Origin: Synergistaceae bacterium
GTDB taxonomy: Bacteria > Synergistota > Synergistia > Synergistales > Synergistaceae
DNA length: 39,268 nt
Assembly: GCA_031290235.1 (NCBI GenBank)
Contig: JAITNX010000052.1
Coordinates: forward strand, 1-39,268
Direction: 5' to 3'
Position 1 is the first letter of the stretch; every line of letters begins with the position of its first letter. Position numbers and translations under genes: made by a program. Positions 37,452 through 38,700 of this stretch are shown in pieces. The notes below the pieces were generated by a model, which saw nothing but the letters and a program-made list of their open reading frames with translations, was not told the origin of the DNA and did not search any database.

Positions 37452-37538
37452 GTCGGGGTGGCGGAACTGGTAGACGCGCTGGATTCAGGATCCAGTGGGC
37501 GCAAGCTCATGGGGGTTCAATTCCCCCCCTCGACACCA
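37452..37538 (+). tRNA. tRNA-Leu (anticodon CAG), CCA encoded
   Basis: Acceptor GTCGGGG/CCTCGAC, anticodon arm CTGGA-TTCAGGA-TCCAG, long variable arm, T loop GTTCAATTC, terminal ACCA. Confidence 0.95.
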
Positions 37539-37569
37539 AATTGAAAATCAAGCAACGTTCGAGATACAG

Positions 37570-37598
37570 AAAACCCGCTCACAAGGCGGGTTTTCGCT
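37570..37598 (+). terminator. Intrinsic terminator after tRNA-Leu
   Basis: AAAACCCGC-TCACAAG-GCGGGTTTT followed by T-rich sequence. Confidence 0.8.
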
Positions 37599-37990: not shown

Positions 37991-38179
37991 ATGAGTTATG
38001 AGGAAGAAAAAAAAGAACTTGGCGAATGGTACAAGCAGAAAACTCACGAATACTTAGAAGCTCTGGACAGGGAACACCTGCCGGGGCTTGATTCTCCGCT
38101 TGACGCGCTCCACAAGCAGGACACCAAAGAGTTCAACCGTCGCCTGCTCGCACTGAAAGAAAAGTATGGCGTGGAGTAG
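37991..38179 (+). CDS. Small hypothetical protein in prophage remnant
   Basis: 62 aa MSYEEEKKELGEWYKQKTHEYLEALDREHLPGLDSPLDALHKQDTKEFNRRLLALKEKYGVE; start overlaps preceding stop region. Confidence 0.6.
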   Translation: MSYEEEKKELGEWYKQKTHEYLEALDREHLPGLDSPLDALHKQDTKEFNRRLLALKEKYGVE

Positions 38180-38233
38180 AATACGCCGCTCCTCGCCGGG
38201 CAGTCGAGTAAATGGCAGAGTACCGCGTCGGTG

Positions 38234-38242
38234 TGATATAAT
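38234..38242 (+). promoter_or_regulatory. Extended -10 promoter TGATATAAT
   Basis: Consensus TGn-TATAAT; no clear -35. Confidence 0.5.
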
Positions 38243-38248
38243 AAGCAC

Positions 38249-38386
38249 GGCCCCGATAGACTCAGGTGGCTCGGTCGAGCTGGTGACTCGACCGGGAGAA
38301 TTATGCCCCTATCGAGTCCAGCGAATGATGAGTTTCAGTTTCAGTATGAGCCGCAACCACGGAATCAGCCGTGATTGCGGTTTTTT
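38249..38386 (+). ncRNA. Candidate ~138-nt structured small RNA (possible antisense antitoxin)
   Basis: Extended -10 upstream; stem CGGTCGAG-CTGGTGA-CTCGACCG; outer pairing CGATAG/CTATCG; intrinsic terminator at 3' end; no + strand ORF of note. Confidence 0.45.
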
Positions 38387-38419
38387 CCGTGGTGAGGCTT
38401 TCTTCTTCCGCTTGCTCAT
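38309..38419 (-). CDS. 36-aa very basic/hydrophobic peptide, candidate type I toxin
   Basis: MSKRKKKASPRKKPQSRLIPWLRLILKLKLIIRWTR; SD GGGAGGGGG about 8 nt before ATG (38419). Confidence 0.45.
   Translation of the reverse strand: MSKRKKKASPRKKPQSRLIPWLRLILKLKLIIRWTR
38351..38386 (+). terminator. Intrinsic terminator CCGCAACCACGG-AATCAG-CCGTGATTGCGG-TTTTTT
   Basis: 12-bp stem with one mismatch followed by six T. Confidence 0.8.
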
Positions 38420-38513
38420 CGTTATCACCCCCTCCCATGCGATGTTCTGCCGGGTGTTGCTGAGGTGTGTCCTTCCGTGCGTCCCGTTGGTCAAGGGACC
38501 GCGCTCAATTAAG

Positions 38514-38541
38514 ATTATGCATGAACAGGACAGGAGGCCAA
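38514..38541 (-). promoter_or_regulatory. Candidate minus-strand promoter TTGGCC-16-CATAAT for the 36-aa ORF
   Basis: -35 at 38541-38536, -10 at 38519-38514; would give a leader of ~90 nt. Confidence 0.4.
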
Positions 38542-38546
38542 CACCC

Positions 38547-38700
38547 ATGACCGCCATTAAGATCAACCGATTCAACTTGAACGAGATCAAAGAGGTCTCT
38601 GTGTGTGGTCTGCAAAAAATGCGGCGCAAGAATGACATACAAACTTAGCAACGACGGCCCGCTGAGCGTCCGTCCGCTTTGCTACAGACGTGATTACGGT
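38547..38700 (+). pseudogene. Frame-broken small zinc-ribbon-like phage ORF
   Basis: MTAIKINRFNLNEIKEVSV in one frame continues as VCKKCGARMTYKLSNDG in another; the switch is at a CTGTGTGTGG dinucleotide run. Confidence 0.45.

Follow-up and report, generated by a model that had tools for sequence, protein, structure and literature searches.

A 39,268-nucleotide contig from a Synergistaceae bacterium (the whole stretch is referred to here as the window) carries a locus that looks like a member of a previously undescribed family of Synergistota, in which a candidate toxin is silenced by RNA. We consider it quite probable that the locus is a type I toxin-antitoxin (TA) module, and the best reading is that it represents a new family of such systems, one that would join an inert mRNA in the style of Hok and AapA to a 3' overlap in the style of TxpA and BsrG. 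The general features of type I systems that can be tested by sequence, namely a small conserved open reading frame (ORF) with a Shine-Dalgarno (SD) sequence, an antisense gene and a structured mRNA, are all predicted here. At the level of sequence comparison, the copies described below establish a convergent antisense gene, an in-ORF terminator, SD/anti-SD and 5'-3' pairing, and selection on the protein. A first-pass annotation had proposed a type I system on the basis of the window locus; the conserved frame, the convergence and the conserved antisense promoter and terminator bear it out, but it had missed the multicopy nature of the module, the covarying 5'-3' fold and the anti-SD. The elements at the window locus are as follows.

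38514..38541, minus strand: toxin promoter TTGGCC-16-CATAAT (-10 CATAAT at 38519..38514, TTGGCC at 38541..38536)
38495..38504, minus strand: 5' arm of the 5'-3' end pairing of the toxin mRNA; compensatory changes at 6 of 11 pairs
38464..38469, minus strand: anti-SD in the leader, pairing with the SD (second RNAalifold helix)
38428..38436, minus strand: SD sequence GGGAGGGGG, present in every copy
38309..38419, minus strand: toxin-candidate ORF of 36 aa, MSKRKKKASPRKKPQSRLIPWLRLILKLKLIIRWTR, with ATG at 38419, a conserved frame and an AlphaFold2 helix
38351..38386, plus strand: intrinsic terminator embedded in the toxin ORF, a perfect stem followed by U6; stem pairing kept across subgroups
38270..38296, no strand assigned: 3'UTR hairpin H1 (CTCGGTCGAG/CTCGACCGGG), which doubles as the antisense RNA's 5' hairpin; 4 of its 10 pairs show compensatory changes
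38249..38386, plus strand: predicted antisense (antitoxin) RNA of about 138 nt, from the promoter and terminator positions
38245..38254, minus strand: 3' arm of the end pairing, equivalent to the antisense RNA 5' end on the plus strand; identified by covariation and cognate permutation
38234..38242, plus strand: antisense promoter with extended -10 TGATATAAT; -10 box in 17 of 17 intact, completely sequenced copies

The first-pass annotation had correctly placed the 36-aa ORF with its strong SD, as well as the convergent promoter on the plus strand and the antisense terminator. Both boxes of the minus-strand promoter are likewise present and the -10 is conserved across copies, but the -35 TTGGCC is not common to the other copies. 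The frame stays open upstream to give a 109-aa ORF, within which the internal ATG preceded by the SD is the conserved start. We found no terminator for the toxin transcript, which counts against the type I reading, as does the fact that the 5'-3' end pairing needs a toxin transcript that reads through the antisense promoter.

An antisense gene with its own promoter and terminator, overlapping the toxin mRNA, is predicted from the sequence and its conservation. The length of about 138 nt proposed earlier stands, but the overlap is not restricted to the 3' part of the ORF, since the RNA spans about 70% of it (78 of 111 nt). It would start 60 to 70 nt beyond the toxin stop codon and does not reach the SD or ribosome-binding site (RBS). 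The intrinsic terminator had also been anticipated, with the refinement that it sits inside the ORF. Among homologues with a resolved end, the predicted RNA measures 131 to 157 nt, and the convergent arrangement and the antisense promoter and terminator are kept in every intact copy having sequence there. The terminator stem differs in sequence from subgroup to subgroup with its pairing retained; its U-tract lies opposite Lys codons, and Pro and Trp codons make up opposing arms of the stem. The DNA is under a double load, the Lys codons of the toxin being the U-tract of the antitoxin terminator.

An intact ORF of this type occurs in 18 modules, including five in the source genome and two on phage contigs; decayed copies come in addition. 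A 601-base query located five further places in the source genome. One intact copy (C65) is 79% identical at the DNA level and encodes MKKLKPKKKSRPVRRWIAPVLKLKLLIRWTR, C28 holds an intact copy encoding MKKRKPQKKSRPRRRAWIALFLKLKLILRWPR and a second, divergently oriented one encoding MSKKRKKLKKKRRPVIIWPTFVLKLQLLWRWVRKSG, and the fifth intact copy of the genome (C93, MSKKHKKKGRRCCAVALILKLLKLIHRVLAR) was found by the RNA model. These copies retain the ORF, the SD, both -10 boxes, the antisense terminator and the hairpins. In the decayed copies C42 and C85 (L004 and L005), the toxin C terminus and the antisense promoter have been lost together. Profile searches recovered additional copies from other genomes of the genus and the family, and peptide-only searches of 188 Synergistota genomes gave nothing convincing beyond that family; weak peptide matches in G030, G034, G040, G015 and G067 were judged to be chance. 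The sole match in a scan of a genome collection was JAITOY010000024, from Synergistaceae bacterium Po218_bin80 (MAG). Searches of phage and plasmid collections by tblastn and blastn, and scans of viral contigs for peptide patterns, returned no match. Using the DNA pattern of the 3'UTR hairpin alone, we obtained one match among 2.9 million viral contigs, and a second 3'UTR hairpin pattern recovered the same contig and one more. Both phage contigs (L060 and L061) have an SD and a family ORF upstream of the hairpin (MKTKRKSHKKKRQPRHWLTFFLKLKLVFRWPWRP, from TTG, and MKRKPKQKKKHQPRRKWLVLVLKLKLKLLWPLWP), both promoters, the in-ORF antisense terminator and the end pairing, and the ORFs around them look phage-like.

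Conservation of the peptide frame had been set as a refuting test for the earlier proposal, which survived it. In DNA-only pairwise alignments, the sense frame (frame 0) had the highest pS/pN of all six frames in 10 of 11 pairs, and every internal gap was a multiple of three. For example, C28 compared with G014 shows 15 synonymous and 9 nonsynonymous changes, and the codon-based dN/dS is about 0.1 to 0.3 for most pairs; it is 0.59 for the close pair C65 and G014, which differ by few changes only. These substitutions show purifying selection on the peptide frame. At the N terminus, some of the conservation comes from the opposite strand, in which the Lys codons serve as the U-tract and the Pro and Trp codons as opposing arms of the terminator stem. 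The near-invariant P16, W21 and Lys run all lie on this stem or U-tract, so that some of the peptide conservation is dictated by the RNA, as it would be if the locus were a structured regulatory RNA (a cis leader or trans sRNA) with a small ORF arising only as a side effect of its terminator and hairpins. We regard this as very unlikely, because frame 0 outperforms the other five frames, because the antisense terminator stem does not extend to the C-terminal LKLKL..RW, and because loci with another peptide type still have the ORF and the SD.

Across the family, the peptides are 28 to 40 aa long with a net charge of +9 to +15. In the AlphaFold2 prediction the basic tail is disordered and residues 20 to 35 form a helix (block pLDDT 85 to 87). 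We read the peptide as an unstructured Lys/Arg-rich N-terminal part and a C-terminal amphipathic helix, with membrane action as its most likely mode. The helix is short, very basic and without a classical transmembrane segment, a point that we count against the type I reading. The extreme charge could fit nucleic acid as well as membrane, and conserved RNA control implies only that translation is tightly restricted; the same RNA switch might accordingly govern a small peptide that is no self-toxin, for instance a phage-borne one directed at the membrane or nucleic acid of the host, or one made only at a particular stage. This seems to us unlikely, as type I toxins are typically multicopy, highly variable small peptides whose helices are amphipathic or transmembrane, whose antisense promoter is strictly retained with them, and which sit in phage or plasmid settings.

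The minus-strand transcript at the window locus has a predicted fold 4.2 s.d. below dinucleotide shuffles. We aligned ten full copies of the transcript, from the toxin -10 to the antisense -10, and ran RNAalifold without a supplied structure, which returned exactly four elements. These pair the first transcribed bases with the 3' end (columns 10-20/311-321), the anti-SD with the SD (columns 60-64/101-105), the arms of an in-ORF hairpin whose opposite strand is the antisense terminator (columns 165-176/187-198), and those of the 3'UTR hairpin (columns 268-277/287-296). Two-sided, compensatory changes occur at 16 of the 35 pairs of these helices, for example U-A instead of C-G in the anti-SD/SD helix of L003, and 93.7% of cells are paired. 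No column shuffle (0/500) reached the real alignment on any measure, and sliding the partner by one column lowered the paired cells to 53% or less. On this comparative evidence, the toxin mRNA has a structured fold of four covarying helices, including SD/anti-SD and 5'-3' pairing, and this fold would restrain translation.

Cognate arms of the end pairing have a mean energy of -28.4 kcal/mol, against -21.5 kcal/mol for noncognate arms, and only 1 of 20,000 permutations was as good. Fourteen loci outside the derivation set, with arms located by eye, gave -25.6 versus -21.5 (0/20,000 permutations); together with the two phage contigs, the end pairing holds in 16 loci outside that set. One locus (L024) has no strong 5'-3' end pairing, which we count against our reading. 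The best conserved stretch of the 3'UTR across peptide classes is GGGNGUAAGUCCCGG(U/C)UGAG, found in most copies (e.g., L031 1603-1667), and its conservation exceeds what the hairpin alone explains. Paired termini could also belong to a miniature mobile element (a MITE-like repeat) with promoter-like terminal inverted repeats and an incidental ORF: there are several copies of about 300 nt per genome, their imperfect inverted termini read TATAAT...GGCCCC, and many lie at contig ends. We find this scarcely credible, given that the termini vary between copies yet match within each copy, that the spacing from TATAAT is unequal at the two ends, that the internal helices covary too, and that the peptide is under purifying selection. 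Flanking direct repeats or target-site duplications were not seen by eye, and membership of a MITE or other transposable repeat, with constant terminal inverted repeats and target-site duplication, was rejected.

In the type I system that we favor, the minus strand would produce a leadered mRNA encoding a small cationic peptide, with the membrane as its most likely target. The full-length mRNA would be inactive, its first bases paired with the 3'UTR and its leader anti-SD lying on the SD, until trimming of the 3' end opened it for translation, as the analogy of hok and aapA suggests. The plus strand would produce the 131- to 157-nt antisense RNA, which would silence the mRNA by pairing with the 3'UTR and most of the ORF. 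Because this RNA misses the RBS, RNase III cleavage, as for RatA, or remote refolding of the leader, as SR4 does with its target (PMC4147584), would be likelier than an RBS block. Its 5' end pairs with 3'UTR bases that are held by the mRNA 5' end, so the closed mRNA should resist the antisense RNA, as has been reported for aapA3 (PMC6733600). Loss of the locus, or a lack of fresh antisense RNA, would release the peptide, and release upon loss would suit the stabilizing cargo of phages and other mobile DNA.

The proposed module resembles several known systems in part. Like aapA/IsoA of Helicobacter and Campylobacter, it has a basic 30- to 40-aa peptide with a single amphipathic helix (PMC6733600, PMC8309996), multiple copies per genome, a cis antisense RNA, and an mRNA that a long-distance 5'-3' interaction and anti-SD elements are predicted to keep inert. 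IsoA, however, is an 80-nt RNA with its -10 box and start in the ORF that masks the SD (PMC6733600), whereas the Synergistota antisense promoter lies 60 to 70 nt past the stop codon, the terminator lies in the ORF and the SD is left uncovered. Membership of aapA/IsoA is not supported by a comparison of antisense geometry or by the NCBIfam models, none of which matched. The layout of txpA/RatA and bsrG/SR4 of Bacillus subtilis, with convergent mRNA and antisense genes overlapping at their 3' ends in prophage-like DNA (PMC4147584), had been invoked earlier and is indeed found here, and the conserved anti-SD could be strengthened upon antisense binding, as for SR4. Those toxins are more hydrophobic (TxpA has 59 aa) and the overlaps are about 75 and 120 nt, whereas the Synergistota antisense RNA extends over most of the ORF, and 5'-3' pairing is conserved in the mRNA. 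With hok/Sok of plasmid R1 the module shares a full-length mRNA closed by 5'/3' pairing, for which 3' processing is needed (PMC6733600), but Sok overlaps the mok leader ORF rather than the 3' half, the peptide is unrelated, and we noticed no mok-like leader ORF in the Synergistota module. The msoT1/msoA1 pair of Microcystis is likewise a candidate type I system outside the classical phyla, with an antisense RNA complementary to the 3' end of the coding sequence and the 3'UTR (PMC12390103), but its toxin has 63 aa and two predicted membrane helices (PMC12390103); we found no relation to the Synergistota peptide or RNA scaffold and set it apart by description.

Before the cyanobacterial case, according to a 2025 paper, only Proteobacteria, Firmicutes and Tenericutes were known to have type I systems, a range that it blames on similarity-based searches (PMC12390103). 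Our literature search found no paper on type I TA systems in Synergistetes or Synergistota. The first-pass annotation had recognized no known family for the peptide, and database searches agree: Pfam, NCBIfam and PHROGs searches with the peptides returned no family, Rfam found only a tRNA in the window, and the described toxin families (aapA/IsoA, txpA, bsrG, hok, ldr, ibs, fst and others) gave no meaningful match in Pfam, NCBIfam or Rfam. A match of one member to YmiA (E 0.0015) was taken as chance, and a permissive Rfam search of six homologues gave matches at chance level only. The family, invisible to Pfam, NCBIfam and Rfam, lies outside the phyla known for type I systems; it is multicopy and phage-borne, was reached through its RNA, and would join two regulatory designs that usually occur in separate systems, a self-closed mRNA and a 3'-overlapping antisense RNA.

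The prophage setting proposed for the module holds in the window, where it adjoins a minor capsid protein gene, but the system is not confined to prophages. The L057 module adjoins GPD and tape measure genes, and other copies lie near housekeeping genes, without an obvious role as mobile cargo, which we count against our reading; the neighbor identities guaA, ychF and rpoB are our assignments by eye. On C28 (L003 1-640, G000:C28), two modules of different subtypes are divergent with adjacent leaders, beside a GTPase-like gene, and at L048 292-1227 (G014:C66) a copy with a frameshifted or GTG-started ORF and an intact antisense promoter lies beside a Rep3 plasmid initiator gene. In the window, a stretch of about 75 bp upstream of the antisense promoter (38160-38235, including the end of a 62-aa ORF at 37991-38179) recurs almost unchanged at the C65 copy near a guaA-like gene, so DNA outside the module has moved or recombined together with it. 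The stretch at 37452-37595 holds a tRNA (Leu by eye) and then a terminator, with phage genes within about 1 kb, and is a likely prophage attachment site at the border of the remnant. At 38548-38690, just before the minor capsid gene, there are remains of a small Cys-rich ORF (CxxC, Com-like by eye) with a frame change, and this prophage end looks decayed.

A covariance model built on the 3'UTR/antisense 5' part was run on 188 Synergistota genomes. It identified about 45 loci, spread over 19 genomes and reaching a second family within the order; the remaining 169 genomes had no match at E ≤ 0.001. Many matches have a small ORF that ends exactly at or near the match, often with a different peptide, and some are decayed or lack a clear ORF. 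Other peptide types matched nothing in Pfam, NCBIfam or Rfam. They occur in G024 (MGRKRSKKKNLPKRVYKRIRKAIQKMLRALTRLLA; MLIVVIKINSRLFNIQATIILKISWRRP), in G098, G099 and G166 (amphipathic, e.g., MEEKIRLALAVTQLLLALAELIRLILALF), and in G074 and G002 (transmembrane, MGEEKKSAQIAVWIALLSSLLGALAKLLEAIADLIRSLR), and in all of these loci an inverted repeat again lies within the early ORF. At least four peptide classes are found on the scaffold in Synergistales: basic LKLKL, basic amphipathic arrays, amphipathic ALAELIR, and transmembrane LLGALxxLLEA. We lean toward the view that the conserved unit is the RNA scaffold (the 5'-3' fold, the GGGNGUAAGUCCC 3'UTR hairpin and an antisense RNA ending in the ORF) and that the peptide is exchangeable. 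If true, the RNA and not the toxin would define a type I TA superfamily spanning the phylum. A model of the RNA scaffold could reveal TA loci with unrelated toxins elsewhere. The G024 copies form two five-module clusters (L092 and L093; G024:C5 and G024:C38), each within 2.3 to 2.7 kb, and the modules are of three peptide types; this tandem arrangement is reminiscent of ldr or ibs in E. coli, which are likewise repeated loci.
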